A stretch of 53,931 nt of DNA, taken from Erysipelatoclostridium sp. An173 (GTDB taxonomy: Bacteria; Bacillota_I; Bacilli_A; Erysipelotrichales; Coprobacillaceae). A program made the position numbers and the translations under genes. Position 1 is the stretch's first letter, and each line of letters starts with the position of its first letter. Shown here piece by piece: positions 10,939 to 21,859 of the stretch. The stretch is taken from positions 1 through 53,931 of the forward strand of contig NZ_NFKR01000018.1 in the NCBI RefSeq assembly GCF_002160495.1, in the 5' to 3' direction. The notes beneath the pieces were generated by a model. That model searched no databases and was not told the DNA's origin. It saw only the letters and a list, made by a program, of their open reading frames with translations.

Positions 10939-11887
10939 TTGCGAAAAAAGTATTCAGTTTACCAACAAATAGAAAATTTAAAAAATAAAACATTAAATTT
11001 GAAATTATGGATGAGCATTCAGCATTGCAATATTTAACATATAATACATATTATTTTAAGATAAAATCTTTTGCTAAATCTTTGAATATAATGAATCAAA
11101 AAAGCAATATATTCATTTAGATTTTGAATACTTAGTAGAATTATCTAAACTTGATATGTACTTAAGAGAGTATATTATTAAATTATCGTTAGATACAGAG
11201 CATTTTTTAAAGGTAAAATTAATCAATGATTTAACAAATAATGATAAAGAAGATGGATATAATATTATTAGTCAGTTTTTTCAAAAATATCCTTATATTA
11301 AACGCAATATTGATTTCAAAAAGAATGATTCTGCTTGTGCTGATCTAATTCATAAGTATGAAAATAATTGGGCTGTGTGGAACATTGTAGAAGTGTTATC
11401 TTTTGGCGATTTTATTAAATTATTTGAATTATATTATGAACTTTATCCAGAAAATAAATCTCAAACAATAAATAATCTACTATGGCCATTAAAATTTATT
11501 AGAAATGCTTCAGCTCATAATAATTGCTTATTAAATACCTTAAGAAAACCATATACGCATACACACTTATTTAACGGTAAGAAAAATATTATAGAACCTA
11601 ATAAAAAACTAGTATCTTTATTAACAGAAATTCCTAATATTAGTAAAAATACGAGAAAGAAAAAAATTGCTAATCCAATTATACATGATTTTATAGCAAC
11701 TTTATTTTTATTTAATGAAGTTTGTAGCAGTCCTATATTAAAAGAAAAACAATTGCACATCTTACAAGATTTAATAAATGTAAGATTTGTTAAACATAGT
11801 GAATATTTTATTAACGATAATATATTTACATCAAATTATGAATTTGTTAAAAAAATTGTTGACTATTTATGCGAAAAATACATATAA
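10939..11887 (+). pseudogene. Abi_2 (AbiD/AbiF-like) abortive-infection gene, broken by two frameshifts
   Basis: Three consecutive frames together encode one Abi_2-like protein. Frame 1 starts at TTG 10939 after AGAGGTG and gives KKYSVYQQIENLKNK. Around 11004-11011 the similarity jumps to a second frame (DEHSALQYLTYNTYYFKIK). Around 11080-11092 it jumps to a third (ESKKQYIHLDFEYLVELSKLD), which stays open to 11887. The last part, whose first ATG is 11156, could make a 243-residue product. It has the family motif WNIVEVLSFGDFIKLFE and RNASAH, a HEPN-type R-x4-H motif. Intact relatives block phage growth, probably by cutting RNA. Sequencing error is the alternative explanation. Confidence 0.7.
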
Positions 11888-12269: not shown

Positions 12270-12689
12270 ACAATTTTTTGGAATAAACATAAAATAGGGG
12301 TAAATGTAAATGTGCCAATTGATGAATATCAACAGCGATTATTAGCAGCAAGTGGTGATAATAACCATTTTGCTATTATTATTTCTTTTCAAGGGCGCGG
12401 AATATTAAGCAATATTTTGCCAAAGATTCTTAAAGAGAAACAAACCAAAATGTTATTAATTTCAGCATATGGTTACAATTTTAAAAATTTTGATCCTGAT
12501 TATCATCTGTTCATTAATAATCATGAAAATCATTATAAAAAAATATCTTCATTTTCAACTCGTTTATCAATTTTATTTATTTTAGATGTTTTATATACAT
12601 GTTATTTTAAAATGAATTATGATGAAAATGTAAATAAAAAAGTAGCTTATTATGATTTGATCAGCAAATATAATAATACTAATAGTTAG
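12270..12689 (+). pseudogene. RpiR/MurR-type regulator, SIS-domain fragment
   Basis: The frame is open from 12270; a GTG at 12312 after AGGGG could start a 125-residue product. It resembles only the second half of a sugar-phosphate-sensing SIS domain: PIDEYQQRLLAASGDNN, then FAIIISFQGRG (degenerate ISxSG loop), then STRLSILFILDVLYTCYF near the end. The N-terminal DNA-binding domain of RpiR regulators is missing; a stop at 12267 closes the frame. It is therefore a remnant or a DNA-binding-deficient product. It is followed 26 bases later by the EIIB-like gene, so the pair may once have been an operon. Confidence 0.55.
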
Positions 12690-12715: not shown

Positions 12716-13321
12716 ATGGATTCTTTTTTTCAAGATATTAATATTAGTATTTTTAAATCTTGGATTGAAAATTTAAGCTTTAAAGAAATCTAGATTGAAG
12801 AGAAATCAGATGTAATATATTTTAAAAAGAAAGATTTTTTAGGAACAACAGCTTTTTATCGAGATTATTTAATAGAACATGAAATCTTTGATAATTGTAA
12901 TAAGGAACGCTTATATTATATGCACTACCAATTTATAAATTTTAAGCAGGCTTTAATAATCTTTAATGATTTTATTAATACGTTTAAAGAATATTATCAG
13001 CCTAGAGTAATAAAAGTATTGTTATGTTGTAGCGCTGGTTATACTTCTACATATTTTGCTGATGGAATGAAAAGATTTTGCAACCTGGCTAAAATACCAA
13101 TAGAAATTGAGGCAGCTAGTTATAACAATATTGATAAAATGGCTAGACAATATGACATGATATTATTAGCACCCCAGATAGCTTATTTAGAATCAAAAAT
13201 ACTAACTAAATTTCATGGTGATGTTTATTCAATTCCACCTAAAATGTTTGCTACAAATGATTATAACGAAATAGTTGAATTTATTTTAAAACATAATAAG
13301 TTTACTATATTAAACAAATGA
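12716..13321 (+). pseudogene. EIIB-like protein with in-frame amber codon (paralogue of 36923 gene)
   Basis: From ATG 12716 (after GATGGTG) one frame runs to 13321, interrupted only by TAG at 12791-12793 (codon 26). The conceptual 201-codon product aligns with the first ~200 residues of the gene at 36923: the N-terminal domain of unknown function, then the EIIB lactose/cellobiose-like domain with VLLCCSAGYTSTYF, LLAPQ and IPPKMFA. The ROK-like third domain is absent. Re-initiation at ATG 12920 could give a 133-residue product with the whole EIIB-like domain. The presumed phospho-accepting Cys is kept. It is either a pseudogene by a nonsense mutation or an EIIB-only product. Confidence 0.65.
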
Positions 13322-13342
13322 TTTTATTTTATAAAAAAACTG

Positions 13343-13371
13343 TTGCAATTTTGATTATTATTATATATAAT
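13343..13371 (+). promoter_or_regulatory. Sigma-A promoter of the polyamine operon
   Basis: TTGCAA (13343-13348), a 17-base spacer, then a perfect TATAAT (13366-13371). Transcription would begin near 13378. There is no coding sequence until 13731, so the transcript has a ~350-nt leader. Confidence 0.85.
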
Positions 13372-13377
13372 CTAGAT

Positions 13378-13730
13378 GTTGCAAAAAGAGAATTTATTTT
13401 GCAAGAATTTTGACCACTCTTATGAGTTAAAGCCATCCGGACAGCTGGGTCAAAAGCCGAATCGGCAACTTTGTTGCCTTATTGATAGAACGAAAGTTCG
13501 CTTTTATAAGTTGATGTTATATTTTTAACATTGAGTTGGTGACTATACAACCGTGTGCTTTGGGCACATCACACTTGTGAAACAATCAATAAGAGTAGTA
13601 AAAGTGATTCTTGCTATATAGACTCTGATAAAAATCAAAATGAACACGAAATTTGTTCTATTATGATAATGGATTGATTCTCAAGTTGGATGACCAGCTT
13701 GAGTTTTTTGTTTTAAAGGGGGAAAACGAG
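13378..13730 (+). ncRNA. Structured 5' leader RNA with attenuator, upstream of speD (riboswitch-like)
   Basis: The leader folds into several clear elements: TTGCAAAA/TTTTGCAA near its 5' end; TTTTGACC/GGTCAAAA enclosing an ACTC-TTAT-GAGT hairpin and CCATCCGGACAG; GCCG-AAT-CGGC overlapping GGCAAC-TTT-GTTGCC; and a 9-bp closing stem CTTATTGAT (13478-13486) / ATCAATAAG (13585-13593). The last stem encloses GAAC-GAAA-GTTC, ATGTTA/TAACAT and TGTGC/GCACA hairpins. It ends in a rho-independent terminator right at the speD ribosome binding site. No SAM-I, T-box, TPP, lysine, purine or ykkC core sequence was recognised. Control by a polyamine, SAM or arginine is inference from the operon. Confidence 0.7.
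13680..13714 (+). terminator. Leader terminator (attenuator) in front of speD
   Basis: CTCAAGTTGG (13680-13689) pairs with CCAGCTTGAG (13694-13703), with one G-U pair and an ATGA loop, followed by TTTTTTGTTTT. The speD Shine-Dalgarno AGGGGG starts 3 bases later and ATG is at 13731. No promoter fits in between, so expression of the operon requires read-through. Confidence 0.88.
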
Positions 13731-14501
13731 ATGGGCGAAAAGCTAAAATTATATGGGTTTAATAATTTAACTAAATCTTTGAGCTTTAATATCTATGATG
13801 TTTGTTATGCAAAAAGTCAACGTGCTCAAAAAGATTATATTGCTTATATTGATGAACAATATAATTCTAAAAGACTAACAGATATTTTATATGAAGTGGC
13901 AAATATGATTGGGGCTCAAGTGTTAAATGTTTCTAAACAAGATTATCATCCTCAAGGAGCTAGTGTTACTATGCTTCTAGCTGAAAATGAACGAAAAGGG
14001 ACTGAAGAAGTTGATGATCGAGTAATTTTGGGACATTTGGATAAAAGTCATATTACGGTACACACTTATCCTGAGTATCATCCAGAAACTAATATTGCTA
14101 CTTTTAGAGTTGATATTGATGTATCAACATGTGGTGAAATTTCTCCTTTATCAACATTGGATTTTTTAATTGGGAATTTTGATTCAGATATAATTACAAT
14201 GGATTATCGAGTTCGTGGTTTTACTAGAGATATTAAGGGAAGAAAGCTTTTTATGGATAATCCAATGACGTCAATTCAAGAATATATCGATTCACAAACA
14301 TTGTTAAAGTATGATGCGGTTGATATTAATATGTATCAAGCTAATTTATTTCATACTAAAATGTTAATTAAAGAAATTGATTTACAAAATTATTTATTTA
14401 AAACAGATATTTATGAATTACCACCTAAAGTAAGATTAGAAATTACTAATAATTTACGGCAGGAAATGATAGAAATTTATAGTGGAAGTAATATTTTTTA
14501 G
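13731..14501 (+). CDS. speD: S-adenosylmethionine decarboxylase proenzyme
   Basis: A 256-residue E. coli-type AdoMet decarboxylase. It self-cleaves at a Lys-Ser bond to create a pyruvoyl group; the site is LDKSHITVHTYPE with S106. It makes decarboxylated SAM, the aminopropyl donor for SpeE. The N-terminus MGEKLKLYGFNNLTKSLSF matches the family. The frame is open further upstream to 13653, but that part is the attenuator hairpin; AGGGGG before ATG 13731 fixes the start. It is the first gene of the operon. Confidence 0.95.
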   Translation: MGEKLKLYGFNNLTKSLSFNIYDVCYAKSQRAQKDYIAYIDEQYNSKRLTDILYEVANMIGAQVLNVSKQDYHPQGASVTMLLAENERKGTEEVDDRVILGHLDKSHITVHTYPEYHPETNIATFRVDIDVSTCGEISPLSTLDFLIGNFDSDIITMDYRVRGFTRDIKGRKLFMDNPMTSIQEYIDSQTLLKYDAVDINMYQANLFHTKMLIKEIDLQNYLFKTDIYELPPKVRLEITNNLRQEMIEIYSGSNIF

Positions 14502-14511
14502 GGGGGCGAAA

Positions 14512-15969
14512 ATGAAATTAGATCAAAGCAGAATGCCAATCTATGAAGCATTGCAACAAATGAAACAAGACCGTTTGGTTCCTTTTGATGTACCTGGTCA
14601 TAAACATGGTAAAGGAAATCCCGAATTAACCGATTTTTTAGGTCAAAAATGTATGAGTGTCGATGTTAATTCAATGAAACCATTAGATAATTTATGTCAT
14701 CCAGTATCGGTAATAAAAGAAGCTGAAGAATTAGCAGCAGATGCCTTTAATGCTGCTCATGCCTTTTTTATGGTTGGAGGAACTACTTCATCAGTTCAAA
14801 GTATGATTATGGCAAGTGTTAAAGCTGGTGAAAAAATAATTTTGCCAAGAAATGTCCATCGCAGTGCTATTAATGCAATGATTTTAACAGGTGCTATTCC
14901 TATTTATGTTAATCCTGAAGTTGATAAAAGACTGGGGATTTCTTTAGGAATGTCAGTTAAACAAGTTGAACAGGCAATTATTGATAATCCTGATGCTAAA
15001 GCAATTTTAATTAATAATCCAACTTATTATGGAATTTGTTCCAATATTAAAGCGATTGTTGAATTAGCTCATGAACATGGAATGTTAGCACTAGTAGATG
15101 AAGCTCATGGGACGCACTTTTACTTTAGTGATGAATTACCGATGTCGGCAATGGAAGCTGGTGCTGATATGGCTAGTGTCAGTATGCATAAATCTGGTGG
15201 TAGTTTAACGCAAAGTTCATTTTTGTTATTAGGTCCTAATGTAAATGCTGATTATGTTCGTCAGGTTATTAATTTAACCCAAACAACTAGTGGTTCTTAT
15301 TTATTAATGGTCAGTCTAGATATGTCACGTAAAAATCTGGCTTTAAATGGTAAAGAGATTTTTAGTAAGGTAAGACGTTTAGCACATTATGCTCGTGAAG
15401 AAATCAACCAGATTGGTGATTATTATGCTTATTGCAGGGAATTAATTAACGGTGATAGTGTTTATGATTTTGATGTTACTAAATTATCAATTTTTACCCT
15501 TGATGTAGGACTTGCAGGAATTGAAGTATATGATTTATTGCGTGATGAATATGGTATTCAAATTGAATTTGGTGATATTGGTAATGTTCTAGCGTATATT
15601 TCTGTTGGGGATAGTGAAGCAAATATTGAACGATTAGTAGGAGCTTTATCCGAAATTAGAAGAAGGTTTAAAAAAGATCGTGCCGGAATGTTAGATCATG
15701 AATATATCAATCCCGAAGTTATTGTATCACCACAAGTTGCCTTTTATGGAGATAAGGAATCATTGCCTTTAAAAGAAAGTGCTAATCGTGTTTGTAGCGA
15801 ATTTGTTATGTGTTATCCACCAGGAATTCCAATTTTAGCACCAGGAGAAAAAATTACGCCAGAAATTCTTGATTATATTGAATATGCAAAAGAAAAAGGG
15901 TGCTTTATGACTGGTCCTGAAGATATGGAAATAAATAATTTAAATGTATTAAAGGAAGAGGTGAAATAA
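14512..15969 (+). CDS. speA: Arginine (Orn/Lys/Arg-family) decarboxylase
   Basis: A 485-residue PLP decarboxylase of the aspartate-aminotransferase fold (B. subtilis SpeA type). The N-terminal motif VPFDVPGHKHGKGNPE and the PLP lysine K227 in SVSMHKSGGSLTQ are visible; the C-terminal YPPGIPILAPGE is typical. Presence of speB (agmatinase) downstream argues for arginine as substrate, giving agmatine. Lysine or ornithine cannot be excluded from sequence alone. AGGGGGG lies just before ATG 14512. Confidence 0.9.
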   Translation: MKLDQSRMPIYEALQQMKQDRLVPFDVPGHKHGKGNPELTDFLGQKCMSVDVNSMKPLDNLCHPVSVIKEAEELAADAFNAAHAFFMVGGTTSSVQSMIMASVKAGEKIILPRNVHRSAINAMILTGAIPIYVNPEVDKRLGISLGMSVKQVEQAIIDNPDAKAILINNPTYYGICSNIKAIVELAHEHGMLALVDEAHGTHFYFSDELPMSAMEAGADMASVSMHKSGGSLTQSSFLLLGPNVNADYVRQVINLTQTTSGSYLLMVSLDMSRKNLALNGKEIFSKVRRLAHYAREEINQIGDYYAYCRELINGDSVYDFDVTKLSIFTLDVGLAGIEVYDLLRDEYGIQIEFGDIGNVLAYISVGDSEANIERLVGALSEIRRRFKKDRAGMLDHEYINPEVIVSPQVAFYGDKESLPLKESANRVCSEFVMCYPPGIPILAPGEKITPEILDYIEYAKEKGCFMTGPEDMEINNLNVLKEEVK

Positions 15970-16820
15970 TGGAGCTATGGTTTACTGAACGCCATACTAA
16001 TGGTGTAAACTTTTCAATAAAAGTTGATCGGCAATTATTTAGTGGTCAAAGTGAATTTCAAAGAATTGATATATTTGATTCAAAAGAATTTGGTCGTTTT
16101 TTAGCTTTGGATGGCTATATGATGTTGACAGAAAAAGATGAATTTATTTATCATGAAATGATTGTTCATGTTCCTATGGCAGTGCATCCAAATGTAAAAA
16201 AAGTCTTAGTTATTGGTGCAGGTGATGGTGGTGTAATTCGTGAATTATGCCGTTATGAAACAATTGAAACTATTGATATGGTTGAAATAGATGAACTAGT
16301 AGTTGAAGTAAGTAAAAAATACTTACCAACTACCGCGTGTTGTTTTGATGATCCGCGTCTAAATATTTTCTATCAAGATGGATTGCGTTTTGTCCGTACT
16401 AAAGAAAATGAATATGATTTAATCATTGTTGATTCTACTGATCCTTTTGGACCAGGCGAAGGATTGTTTACAAAAGAATTTTATGGTAACTGTTTTAAAG
16501 CTTTAAATGAAACTGGAATTATGGTTAATCAACATGAAAGTCCTTTTTATCAAACAGATGCAATAGCAATGCAACGGGCTCATAAAAGAATAGTTGAAAG
16601 TTTTCCAATTTCTAGAGTATACCAGGCCCATATTCCAACTTATCCATCAGGACATTGGTTGTTTGGCTTTGCCTCAAAAAAATATCATCCTATCAAAGAT
16701 TTTCAAAAAACAAAATGGAATGCTCGTGGGATGAAAACTAAATATTATAATACTGGTATCCATGTTGGTTCATTTGCCTTACCAAATTATGTAGAGGAGT
16801 TACTTAGAGATGTGGAATAA
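15969..16820 (+). CDS. speE: Spermidine synthase (aminopropyltransferase)
   Basis: A 283-residue Rossmann-fold aminopropyltransferase. The dcSAM-binding motif VIGAGDGGVIRE (about residues 78-89) and the catalytic DSTDPFGPGEGLF (about 156-168) are present. It transfers aminopropyl to putrescine to make spermidine, or possibly to agmatine or spermidine. It starts on the last base of the speA stop and overlaps speB by 11 bases, so translation is tightly coupled. Confidence 0.93.
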   Translation: MELWFTERHTNGVNFSIKVDRQLFSGQSEFQRIDIFDSKEFGRFLALDGYMMLTEKDEFIYHEMIVHVPMAVHPNVKKVLVIGAGDGGVIRELCRYETIETIDMVEIDELVVEVSKKYLPTTACCFDDPRLNIFYQDGLRFVRTKENEYDLIIVDSTDPFGPGEGLFTKEFYGNCFKALNETGIMVNQHESPFYQTDAIAMQRAHKRIVESFPISRVYQAHIPTYPSGHWLFGFASKKYHPIKDFQKTKWNARGMKTKYYNTGIHVGSFALPNYVEELLRDVE

Positions 16821-17670
16821 AAATATTGAAACCTTCATTGGATTAGATGCTTCTTTTGAAGAAGCCAGTTGTGTGATCTTTGGGGCACCAATGGATAGTA
16901 CTACTTCCTATCGGCCTGGAACTAGATTTGCTTCAAGTACAATGCGTAAAGAATCTTTTGGAATCGAAACATATAGTCCTTATCAGGATAAAGATTTAGA
17001 AGATATTAAAGTTTTCGATGGTGGTGATCTAGAATTACCATTTGGAAATCCACGTAAAGCTTTAGATATGATTAATGAAACAACTAAAATAATTCTAGAT
17101 GCTAACAAGCTGCCATGTATGATTGGTGGTGAACATCTAGTTAGTTTGGGAGCTATTGAAGCAGCATATGAAAAATATCCAGATTTACGGATTATTCACT
17201 TTGATGCTCATACTGATTTACGTGACGAATATCTAGGTGAAAAATTATCACATGCTTCAGTTATTAAAAGAGCATATGACTTAGTTGGTGATCATAAAAT
17301 TTATCAATTTGGTATTCGTAGTGGTGAACGGGCAGAATTTTACTGGGCTAAAGAACATACCATTTTAAATAAATTTAATTTTAATGGATTAAAACAAGCT
17401 ATTGCAGAATGTCAAGGCTATCCGGTTTATTTTACGATTGATCTTGATGTTTTAGATCCGAGTGTTTTTCCTGGAACAGGAACACCAGAAGCTGGAGGGG
17501 TAAGCTTCAATGAATTATTAGAAGCTATCATTGCGGTAAGTTCATTAAACGTAGTGGCTATGGATATTAATGAGTTATCACCAGTTTATGATCCTAGCGG
17601 GGCTTCAACAGCTTTAGCTTGTAAAATATTAAGAGAATTATTATTAGCAATGAATAAAGGAGAAGAGTAA
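16810..17670 (+). CDS. speB: Agmatinase
   Basis: A 286-residue ureohydrolase with the binuclear Mn motifs: IGGEH, FDAHTDLRDEY, and TIDLDVLDPSVFPGTGTPE. It hydrolyses agmatine to putrescine and urea, or N1-aminopropylagmatine to spermidine if SpeE acts on agmatine. The latter use is known from thermophiles. It is positioned after speE and abuts the next gene with no spacer. Confidence 0.93.
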   Translation: MWNKNIETFIGLDASFEEASCVIFGAPMDSTTSYRPGTRFASSTMRKESFGIETYSPYQDKDLEDIKVFDGGDLELPFGNPRKALDMINETTKIILDANKLPCMIGGEHLVSLGAIEAAYEKYPDLRIIHFDAHTDLRDEYLGEKLSHASVIKRAYDLVGDHKIYQFGIRSGERAEFYWAKEHTILNKFNFNGLKQAIAECQGYPVYFTIDLDVLDPSVFPGTGTPEAGGVSFNELLEAIIAVSSLNVVAMDINELSPVYDPSGASTALACKILRELLLAMNKGEE

Positions 17671-18873
17671 ATGAAAAGAACATTAATTATTGGTTGTGGT
17701 GGAGTTGCTTCAGTAGCGATTCACAAATGTTGTCAAAATAGTGATATATTTGAAGAAATTATGATTGCTTCAAGAACAAAAAGTAAATGCGATAAATTAA
17801 AAGAAGAATTACAAGACAAAACAAAAACAATTATTCATACAGCTAAGGTAGATGCTAATAACGTTGATGAATTAGTAGCTTTAATGCAAGATTTTAAACC
17901 AGAAGTGGTTTTAAACTTAGCATTACCATATCAAGATTTAAAAATTATGGATGCTTGTTTAATTGCTGGATGTCATTATATCGATACTGCCAATTATGAA
18001 CCAGAAGATACTGCTAAATTTGAATATAGCTGGCAATGGGCATACCGTGAAAAATTTGAACAAGCTGGATTAACTGCGATTTTAGGTTGTGGATTTGACC
18101 CAGGTGTTACAGGTGTATTTAGTGCTTATGCTTTAAAACATGAGTTTGATGAAATTAATTATATTGATATTTTAGATTGTAATGGTGGTGACCATGGTTA
18201 TCCATTTGCAACAAACTTTAATCCAGAAATTAATATTCGTGAAGTTTCAGCTAATGGAAGCTACTTTGAAGATGGTCATTGGGTTGAAACAAAACCAATG
18301 GAAATTAAACGTGAATATGATTTTGCTCAAGTTGGTAAAAAAGATATGTATTTATTACATCATGAAGAATTAGAATCATTAGGAATTAATATTCCTGGAA
18401 TTAAAAGAATTCGTTTCTTCATGACATTTGGTCAAAGTTACTTAACACATTTAAAATGTTTAGAAAATGTTGGAATGACATCAATTGAACCAATTGAATT
18501 TGAAGGAAAACAAATTATTCCGTTACAATTTTTAAAAGCAGTTTTACCTGATCCAGCTAGTTTAGGACCACGTACTGTTGGTAAAACAAACATTGGATGT
18601 ATTTTCCAAGGTAAAAAAGATGGTGAATATAAAAAATACTATTTATATAATGTTTGTGATCATCAAGAATGTTATAAAGAAGTTGGTTCACAAGCAGTTA
18701 GCTATACAACTGGAGTACCAGCAATGATTGGAGCTATGTTATTATTGCAAGGTAAATGGAAAAAACCTGGTGTTTACAACGTAGAAGAATTTGATCCTGA
18801 TCCATTTATGGATGCTTTAAATAAATGGGGATTACCATGGATTGAAGATCGTAATCCAGTATTGGTGGACTAA
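17671..18873 (+). CDS. Carboxynorspermidine/carboxyspermidine dehydrogenase (saccharopine dehydrogenase family)
   Basis: A 400-residue Lys9-like reductase. The N-terminal nucleotide-binding loop IIGCGGVASVAIH (about residues 5-17) and the substrate region GCGFDPGVTGVFSAYA are typical of CASDH. In the alternative polyamine route it joins aspartate semialdehyde to putrescine (or diaminopropane) using NADPH to give carboxyspermidine. Immediate linkage to nspC supports this over lysine biosynthesis. It overlaps nspC by one base. Confidence 0.9.
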   Translation: MKRTLIIGCGGVASVAIHKCCQNSDIFEEIMIASRTKSKCDKLKEELQDKTKTIIHTAKVDANNVDELVALMQDFKPEVVLNLALPYQDLKIMDACLIAGCHYIDTANYEPEDTAKFEYSWQWAYREKFEQAGLTAILGCGFDPGVTGVFSAYALKHEFDEINYIDILDCNGGDHGYPFATNFNPEINIREVSANGSYFEDGHWVETKPMEIKREYDFAQVGKKDMYLLHHEELESLGINIPGIKRIRFFMTFGQSYLTHLKCLENVGMTSIEPIEFEGKQIIPLQFLKAVLPDPASLGPRTVGKTNIGCIFQGKKDGEYKKYYLYNVCDHQECYKEVGSQAVSYTTGVPAMIGAMLLLQGKWKKPGVYNVEEFDPDPFMDALNKWGLPWIEDRNPVLVD

Positions 18874-19982
18874 TGAAAACGCCATATTATCTAATTGATG
18901 AAGAACTTTTGGAAAAAAATCTAAAAGTTCTTCACTATGTCAAAGAAAAAACAGGATGCAAAATTTTATTAGCCCAAAAATGTTTTTCGATGTTTAGTGT
19001 TTATCCTCTAATTGGAAAATATTTAGATGGAACAACAGCAAGTGGTTTGTTTGAAGCAAAATTAGGACATGAAGAAATGAAAAAAGAAAATCATGTTTAT
19101 AGCGCAGCTTATCGTGATGATGAAATTGAAGAAATTATGAATATATGTGATCATGTTGTTTTCAATTCATTTAATCAATGGCTTAAATATAAAGAACTTG
19201 CTAAAACAACAAACACTTCATGTGGTATCCGTATTAATCCTGAATGTTCAACTCAAGTAGGACATGCTATCTATGATCCATGTGCTAAGTATTCAAGAAT
19301 GGGTGTAACTCTTGATAATTTTAGAGAAGATTTATTAGATGGTATTGAAGGATTGCACTTTCATACATTATGTGAACAAAATAGTGATGATTTACAAACT
19401 ACTATTGAAGCTATTGAAAATAAATTTGGAAAATATTTGGGTCAAATGAAATGGTTGAATTTTGGTGGTGGTCATCATATCACTCGCGATGATTACGATA
19501 TTGAGCTTTTAATTAAAATAATTAATGAAATTAAAGAAAAATATCAAGTTCAAGTATATCTAGAACCAGGTGAAGCGATTGCTTTAAATGCAGGATTTTT
19601 AGTATCAAGTGTTTTAGACATTATTAATAATGGAATGGATATAGCAATCATGGATACATCAGCAGCTTGTCATATGCCGGATGTTTTAGAAATGCCATAT
19701 CGTCCAGATATTATTGATAGTGCTAAACCTGAAGTAAAGAAATATACTTATCGATTAGGTGGTCCAACTTGTTTGGCTGGTGATATTATTGGCGATTATT
19801 CATTTGATCAGCCATTACAAATTGGTCAGCAATTATGGTTTAAAGATATGGCCATTTATTCAATGGTTAAAAATAATACTTTTAATGGAATGAATTTACC
19901 AAGTATTGTTTTAAAACAAAATGATAAGTTAAAATTAATCAAAGAATTTGGTTATCAGGATTTTAAAAATAGATTATCATAA
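18873..19982 (+). CDS. nspC: Carboxynorspermidine/carboxyspermidine decarboxylase
   Basis: A 369-residue alanine-racemase-fold PLP decarboxylase. The Schiff-base lysine lies in LLAQKCFSMF. FHTLCEQ, WLNFGGGHHIT, YLEPGEAIAL and MDTSAACHMPDV are family signatures. It decarboxylates carboxyspermidine to spermidine (or carboxynorspermidine to norspermidine). It is the last gene of the six-gene operon. Confidence 0.93.
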   Translation: MKTPYYLIDEELLEKNLKVLHYVKEKTGCKILLAQKCFSMFSVYPLIGKYLDGTTASGLFEAKLGHEEMKKENHVYSAAYRDDEIEEIMNICDHVVFNSFNQWLKYKELAKTTNTSCGIRINPECSTQVGHAIYDPCAKYSRMGVTLDNFREDLLDGIEGLHFHTLCEQNSDDLQTTIEAIENKFGKYLGQMKWLNFGGGHHITRDDYDIELLIKIINEIKEKYQVQVYLEPGEAIALNAGFLVSSVLDIINNGMDIAIMDTSAACHMPDVLEMPYRPDIIDSAKPEVKKYTYRLGGPTCLAGDIIGDYSFDQPLQIGQQLWFKDMAIYSMVKNNTFNGMNLPSIVLKQNDKLKLIKEFGYQDFKNRLS

Positions 19983-21040: not shown

Positions 21041-21859
21041 ATGGAAATCTTAATAGAACCGATTGAAGAATCGCTAATGAGTATACCGGTTTTATTTTTT
21101 GCATACTTAATAGTTGAATATATATCTAGTCAAAATGCTCTTAATAAGATTATGGAGTTTGGTAAAGTTGGACCATTTATCGGGGCAATTTTAGGAAGTA
21201 TTCCTCAATGTGGCTTTTCAGTTGTTGCTGCTAGATTATATGCAATGCGGTACTTGACAATGGGAACATTATTATCAATATTTATGGCTACTAGCGATGA
21301 AGCGTTAGCTATATTGATTGCTCATCCTGATTTATGGGTGATGATGATAATTTTAATTGTTTTAAAAATTGTTATCGGAACGGTTACTGGAATAGTGGTT
21401 GATGGCTTTCACCACAAAGGCAAAGAAGATTATGAATATCTTCAAGTAGAACCATGTGATTGTGGTTGTCAAGAAAGTATCTGGATGCCGGCAATTAGAC
21501 ATACAATAACAACATTTATCTTTATTTTACTAACGAATATAGTTTTTACTTATTTAGTTGCAGTTATTGGTGAGGATAATCTAACAAATATTTTAAAAAC
21601 AAACTGGTTATTACAACCAATTATTGCAGGGATAGTTGGATTCATTCCTAATTGTGCTGGTTCAGTAATTTTAACACAGTTATATGTTGCAGGTGGTTTA
21701 AGTTTTGGAGCTTTAGTTACTGGACTTACAACTAGTGCAGGAGTCGGGACATTAGCATTAATACGTTATAATGAAGATAAAAAAGATACAGCCAAAGTAT
21801 TATTGACTTCATATCTTGTTGCGCTTGTAATAGGTTATATAATTGTAATATTGTTTTAA
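21041..21859 (+). CDS. Putative manganese/arsenic-type permease (ArsP_2-like)
   Basis: A 272-residue membrane protein with about 8-9 hydrophobic helices. It contains two related segments, GSIPQCGFSV (about residue 50) and FIPNCAGSVI (about residue 205), suggesting an internal inverted repeat as in two-fold transporters. A cytosolic linker carries the cysteine cluster CDCGC. It resembles proteins annotated as putative manganese transporters (DUF2899/ArsP_2). Substrate is not proven. AGAGGAG precedes the ATG and a terminator follows, so it is a single-gene unit. Confidence 0.7.
   Translation: MEILIEPIEESLMSIPVLFFAYLIVEYISSQNALNKIMEFGKVGPFIGAILGSIPQCGFSVVAARLYAMRYLTMGTLLSIFMATSDEALAILIAHPDLWVMMIILIVLKIVIGTVTGIVVDGFHHKGKEDYEYLQVEPCDCGCQESIWMPAIRHTITTFIFILLTNIVFTYLVAVIGEDNLTNILKTNWLLQPIIAGIVGFIPNCAGSVILTQLYVAGGLSFGALVTGLTTSAGVGTLALIRYNEDKKDTAKVLLTSYLVALVIGYIIVILF

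Follow-up and report, generated by a model that had tools for sequence, protein, structure and literature searches.

The window, a stretch of 53,931 nucleotides from Erysipelatoclostridium sp. An173, carries a polyamine operon on the forward strand, the gene identities of which were checked with Pfam and NCBIfam. The first gene, speD, encodes adenosylmethionine decarboxylase (13731-14501; TIGR03331 equivalog, 392 bits) and is followed by a speA/ldcC-like gene for an Orn/Lys/Arg decarboxylase (14512-15969; PF01276), speE for spermidine synthase (15969-16820; NF002010/TIGR00417), speB for agmatinase (16810-17670; TIGR01230), a carboxynorspermidine synthase-like gene of the LYS9 type (CASDH; 17671-18873; NF043000, 409 bits, below the cut-off of 800) and nspC for carboxynorspermidine decarboxylase (18873-19982; TIGR01047 equivalog). 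A putative 10TM heavy-metal exporter gene of the ArsP_2 type (21041-21859; PF11449) lies 3′ of the operon, and an Abi_2-type (PF07751) abortive-infection-like gene (11156-11887) lies between the ATP synthase genes and the operon. Just 5′ of the leader are two short ORFs (12312-12689 and 12920-13321), the second of which contains a PTS IIB domain (PF02302); they look like fragments of a single decayed regulator gene.

Direct reading of the sequence upstream of speD identified a sigma-70-type promoter on the forward strand, TTGCAA-17-TATAAT (13343-13371; boxes at 13343-13348 and 13366-13371, spacer of 17 nt), with 10 of 12 consensus matches. The promoter alone is weak evidence because a scan of the 511-nt region returned 6 promoter-like sites where 2.7 were expected. 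A terminator scan identified an intrinsic terminator at 13680-13709 of the same strand, CUCAAGUUGG-AUGA-CCAGCUUGAG-U6 (CTCAAGTTGG-ATGA-CCAGCTTGAG and then T6 in DNA letters). Two terminator-like sites were found in the scan of the leader region, compared to 0.1 expected, the second being a conserved hairpin at 13464-13478. A Shine-Dalgarno run, AAAGGGGG (13715-13722, forward strand), stands 3′ of the terminator and before the speD ATG (13731). These elements, along with the long structured leader and a 9-bp stem closing part of it, are all found where an earlier note on this DNA had placed them. The folding energy of the window leader by itself was only moderately unusual (z -2.25); the comparative evidence is decisive.

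A covariance model (R1; 203 positions, 55 base pairs) delimited the full conserved structured RNA as 13411-13626 of the forward strand, about 216 nt, and comparison of relatives divides it into a 5′ domain, which corresponds to Rfam family RF02440, and a 3′ domain composed of P3, P5 and P8. R1, whose 36 training sequences include the window, scored the window RNA at 157.1 bits (E 2.8e-35) and found a single copy in the 2.93 Mb genome, at 13411-13626. All helices are given for the forward strand. The 5′ domain (13411-13460, from the Rfam match and the alignment) contains the helix UGACC/GGUCA (13411-13415/13448-13452), a variable hairpin (13416-13419/13424-13427), a small inner hairpin (13431-13433/13444-13446) and a possible CGG/CCG pseudoknot (13438-13440/13457-13459). 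Next comes hairpin P2, GGCAAC-UUU-GUUGCC (13464-13478), in which 6 of 6 pairs had double-sided changes. The closing helix of the 3′ domain is P3, UUAUUGAU/GUCAAUAA (13479-13486/13585-13592, from cross-species alignment), which accounts for 8 pairs of the 9-bp stem noted earlier (13478-13486/13585-13593), with 96-97% of cells paired across species. P3 encloses hairpin P4, GAAC-GAAA-GUUC (13488-13499; double-sided changes in 4 of 4 pairs), and the P5 helix, UUUUAUAAGU/ACUUGUGAAA (13502-13511/13573-13582), which surrounds variable hairpins and had double-sided changes in 10 of 10 pairs, with 93% paired in the 80-RNA alignment. Hairpin P8, GAGU...ACUC (13593-13596/13622-13625), was 97.8-99.3% paired. 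The single-stranded core CGGACAGC and the P8 internal loop, AGUAAAA/UAUAUAG, are near-invariant. In two divergent Streptococcaceae leaders found before speA (L178 and L179), the changes in the 5′ domain are compensatory, giving AACCC/GGGUU and UGCC/GGCA on either side of an invariant ACGGACA loop, which supports the inner hairpin of that domain.

Covariation in relatives, the check that the earlier note had asked for, was strong. In alignment A1, consisting of 36 diverse RNAs aligned by sequence alone, double-sided changes occurred in 27 of 62 pairs compared to 13.9 in shuffles, and 0 of 500 shuffles reached 27; such shuffle counts are not probabilities, the sequences being related. Pairing in A1 was 87.8%, and fell to 33-45% after the partners were slid, a control that retains relatedness but favours a structure drawn from one aligned sequence. 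In an alignment of 80 RNAs that was fitted to the model, and hence biased towards the structure, 47 of 55 pairs had double-sided changes compared to 27.4 in shuffles. Helix 1 was partly out of register in alignment A2 (41.6% paired) as an artefact of the structure string, and was 100% paired in A1. Judged from these alignments, the RNA has a conserved secondary structure with covariation, as is generally expected of a riboswitch.

RF02440 (SpF59_sRNA or ‘ldcC RNA’) matched 13411-13460 over its full length (model 1-54 of 54) at 55.1 bits, above the curated gathering cut-off of 37.2. This was the sole Rfam match in the window; no other family reached its own cut-off in 13200-13900. Of 13 related loci that were searched whole, 12 likewise matched no Rfam family but RF02440, each time only at the 5′ end of the RNA, and the remaining locus (L052) gave no Rfam match at cut-off. 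The model has 54 positions, the 5′ quarter of a conserved RNA of about 203, and lacks P2, P3, P4, P5, P8 and the expression platform. In relatives, long stretches of sequence are also shared on the 3′ side of the Rfam domain, which indicates that the RNA extends beyond RF02440. The whole RNA is common to 36-80 relatives, and conservation and covariation run to 13626 and into the terminator, which does not fit an independent small RNA of about 54-82 nt. The description of the leader as unrecognised in the earlier note consequently fails for 13411-13460 and stands for the remainder, which is outside the Rfam model. That note had also counted a hit in a known Rfam family as grounds for refutation; formally RF02440 is such a hit, in a family that models 54 of about 203 positions. 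The boundaries given here are those of the complete RNA; the 5′ fragment is already catalogued, as a small RNA.

The namesake of the family is the pneumococcal RNA F59 (SN20, srn235 or Spd_sr49), and the gene 3′ of it, SP0916, is one that we take to encode a polyamine decarboxylase, a position resembling that of the RNA before the polyamine operon here. F59 is described as an 82-nt RNA between SP0915 and SP0916 (PMC3395615), it is among the sRNAs with a lung phenotype in a review (PMC4387999), and in a survey from 2025 it is still a putative sRNA, with a length of 327 nt and conservation in 385 strains (PMC12323649). Full-text searches yielded no function for the RF02440 family, no paper using ‘ldcC RNA’ as a term and no description of the full RNA, its function or its ligand, although an earlier description is possible.

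The conserved RNA is spread far beyond Streptococcus. Searching with RF02440 identified carriers in 14 of 98 near relatives, and scanning named genomes with a gene-blind DNA pattern, CGGACAGCYRGGTCAAANGCCGR, identified at least 119 loci. The RNA occurs in Bacillales, Lactobacillales, Erysipelotrichales, many Clostridia and some spirochaetes, with carriers that include Paenibacillus, Bacillus, Neobacillus, Cohnella, Lactococcus, Lactovum, Acetobacterium, Lachnotalea, Ruminococcus, Sporobacter, Fusibacter, Holdemania, Anaerorhabdus, Brachyspira, other spirochaete genomes and one Synergistaceae MAG. R1 copies were present in 19 of 59 Streptococcaceae genomes. Among the pattern matches listed, 103 loci had enough downstream sequence, and the first recognised downstream gene was a polyamine gene in 101 of them. 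The first genes at these 103 listed loci were CASDH (56, mostly then nspC), speD (33), potA (8), speA/ldcC (4) and a gene for a C39-like lipoprotein (2). Many Paenibacillus loci are near-duplicates; nevertheless, the gene association holds across orders. For example loci, NCBIfam confirmed PotABCD and CASDH-nspC, and one Lactococcus genome has two copies of the RNA, one before potA and one before speA. The cis position before functionally related genes that is general among riboswitches is therefore observed in 101 of 103 of the matches listed.

Variant arrangements were also seen. One locus before a carboxynorspermidine synthase gene has the 3′ domain without the SpF59 5′ domain (L145:1501-1675), and another, before speD, retains the 5′ domain but has a much reduced 3′ part (L005:1445-1551). 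In Erysipelotrichales and relatives, the same leader RNA is found 5′ of genes for secreted peptidase-family lipoproteins, either C39-like (L010, L011, L014, L015, L017, L126 and L147) or M28 (L002 and L008). The Erysipelotrichales leaders before lipoprotein genes have ACAAGUAC, or a sequence close to it, some 40 nt 5′ of the start codon, which suggests control of translation, or a weak terminator.

Among the matches listed, 96 of the 104 leaders contained a predicted intrinsic terminator, located 3′ of the RNA and 5′ of the gene, and 76 of these 96 terminators contained CAAG within the 5′ arm, compared to 8% of background 17-mers. This CAAG is complementary to ACUUG or CUUG of the P5 3′ strand (conserved ACUUGUG). 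After manual removal of four leaders whose terminators were weak or implausible, a pairing test was run, in which the core strand was within the best 5% of arm partners among leader segments in 18 of 23 representative leaders. The mean energy of the arm/core duplex in these 23 leaders was -12.4 kcal/mol for matched pairs, -10.4 kcal/mol when species were swapped (p=2e-4) and -6.2 kcal/mol when sequences were shuffled. Core and arm change together, as in Lactovum (L110, ACGCUUG/CAAGCGU), Ruminococcus (L057, AUCAGCUUGUG/CACAAUGGCUGAU) and L002 (UAUACCUUAU/AUAGGUGUGUAU), with L034 behaving likewise.

For the window, the predicted antiterminator pairs 13573-13587 with 13672-13686 on the forward strand (duplex -13.4 to -13.7 kcal/mol) and is supported by the cross-species complementarity. 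It joins ACUUG (13573-13577) to CAAGU (13682-13686) and is extended by GAA/UUC and CAAUC/GAUUG. The complementarity suggested earlier as a switch, AATCAAT with ATTGATT (13584-13590/13673-13679), is present and is kept in close relatives (AUUGAU in L003, L004, L006, L007 and L009), and it overlaps the antiterminator in a different register. A loose match beside the terminator was found in just 6 of 26 more distant leaders, and we reject this 7-nt pairing as a general mechanism, as it is real within the genus and not conserved outside it. The ACUUG/CAAGU pairing is more widely conserved, and the principal switch strand would be the 3′ strand of P5 (ACUUGUG) instead of P3. A predicted expression platform overlapping the aptamer, another general feature of riboswitches, is therefore present. 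P5 was not formed when RNAfold was run on the window sequence alone, which counts against the proposed switch.

Comparison of relatives supports a structured cis-leader with a terminator/antiterminator choice before the polyamine operon, as the earlier note had proposed. We consider it likely that the leader acts in cis as a riboswitch-type attenuator of this operon and responds to a polyamine, most likely spermidine, as an OFF switch. When polyamine is scarce, ACUUG(UG) of P5 would pair with the CAAGU arm, such that the terminator could not form and the operon would be read. An abundant end product, most likely spermidine, would bind the folded RNA and stabilise P5; the CAAGU arm would then be free, the terminator would form and transcription would end before speD. 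Where a lineage lacks a clear terminator, this P5 strand would pair about 40 nt 5′ of the start codon and would probably control translation. Feedback logic, and the analogy with a spermidine OFF riboswitch (PMC10853860), lead us to expect that polyamine is bound in the folded state. Each of the two conserved domains may be a sensor, or both may form one composite aptamer; their occurrence apart at some loci (L145 and L005) counts against the attenuator reading, as either domain could be the sensor. Also counting against a polyamine riboswitch is the position of the RNA in Erysipelotrichales before C39-like or M28 lipoprotein peptidases without a known polyamine role, a link that could expose a new polyamine-related activity.

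Polyamines are abundant and bind RNA. The genes speD, speA, speE, CASDH-nspC and potABCD share only putrescine and spermidine, and they cover both spermidine routes as well as uptake. That spermidine and its precursor are what these genes share speaks against a switch that senses SAM, dcSAM, arginine or agmatine. Of the ligands that the earlier note had put forward, those in the polyamine area hold up, and SAM/dcSAM, arginine and agmatine fit poorly, as the RNA also precedes CASDH-nspC and potABCD; SAM, arginine and agmatine were rejected, these genes using none of them. The alternative that fares best, although we think it improbable, is a riboswitch for putrescine, for a longer or branched polyamine, for carboxyspermidine or for an Mg2+/polycation balance signal. 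Every associated gene also touches putrescine, polyamines are polycations with broad RNA binding (PMC10853860), and the peptidase lipoproteins suggest a signal broader than spermidine synthesis; however, spermidine is the sole end product common to the speDE and CASDH-nspC routes and is also the PotABCD substrate, and the known analogue riboswitch senses spermidine.

A small molecule need not be what is sensed: leaders read by a protein or a ribosome, through a leader peptide, a T-box or an RNA-binding antiterminator, share the terminator/antiterminator architecture. Such a sensor is quite doubtful here, as a short ORF preceded by a Shine-Dalgarno sequence was found in only 6 of 29 leaders, with none shared, no T-box sequence was found, Rfam gave neither a T-box nor a protein-leader match, and the near-invariant single-stranded cores (CGGACAGC and AGUAAAA/UAUAUAG) resemble a binding fold. 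Least probable is that the RNA is mainly a trans-acting sRNA (SpF59/F59/srn235) that adjoins polyamine genes by chance and has the terminator as its 3′ end. The listing of F59 among sRNAs (PMC3395615, PMC4387999, PMC12323649) speaks for this reading; against it are the 101 of 103 gene association (matches listed) across many orders and several different polyamine operons, the species-matched complementarity of core and terminator arm, and the fact that an early-terminated leader yields the same short transcript.

From the comparative sequence evidence, we conclude that the conserved cis-regulatory RNA is real and is a strong candidate for an undescribed, widespread class of polyamine riboswitch. 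If so, gut bacteria, Bacillus, Paenibacillus and lactic acid bacteria would have in it a main means of controlling polyamines, with one class governing two alternative routes of spermidine synthesis as well as uptake, and it would provide a function for pneumococcal F59, an RNA with a listed lung phenotype. The full boundaries matter, as constructs made from the 54-nt Rfam model would miss most of the RNA.

Several known RNAs invite comparison. The raiA RNA has a comparable size and Bacillota range; identity with it was rejected, as no Rfam family but RF02440 matches the window or the 13 loci. Classical attenuators such as T-box and leader peptide systems also choose between terminator and antiterminator, whereas the leader here has no specifier or T-box sequence and no conserved leader ORF; both were rejected after the leaders were searched (29 for ORFs), with no T-box and no shared ORF found. 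The speF motif is alphaproteobacterial. Like the RNA described here, the odc1, potE and speF motifs are structured RNA candidates near polyamine genes (PMC8632094, PMC7266159), from which the window RNA differs in having no Rfam match except RF02440. The odc1 motif is alphaproteobacterial and the potE motif is from Veillonella (PMC8632094); speF is named in passing (PMC7266159).

The closest functional parallel is the spermidine riboswitch, a SAM-I variant that turns off speD, speE, speB and ldcC-type genes by premature termination (Salvail et al. 2023, PMC10853860). It is rare, and is the only validated bacterial one that we found in the literature search; its authors expected further classes (PMC10853860). 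The two systems have overlapping genes, an OFF switch by termination and, as proposed here, spermidine as the ligand. Identity with this SAM-I-type ‘ldcC’ riboswitch was rejected, as the SAM-I family had no match at gathering in the window or the 13 loci and none to E=10 in 13200-13900; likewise, the earlier note had seen no SAM-I or T-box core, and neither a SAM-I match nor a T-box sequence was found in the leader. We lean towards the view that the RNA represents a second class of polyamine (spermidine) riboswitch, very widespread and of unrelated structure, and that it has stayed hidden since Rfam and the pneumococcal literature list only its 5′ domain, as an sRNA. The SAM-I variant has a four-stem SAM-I architecture and a narrow distribution, whereas the RNA described here has a different fold and a broad distribution, and is also found before potA and CASDH-nspC.
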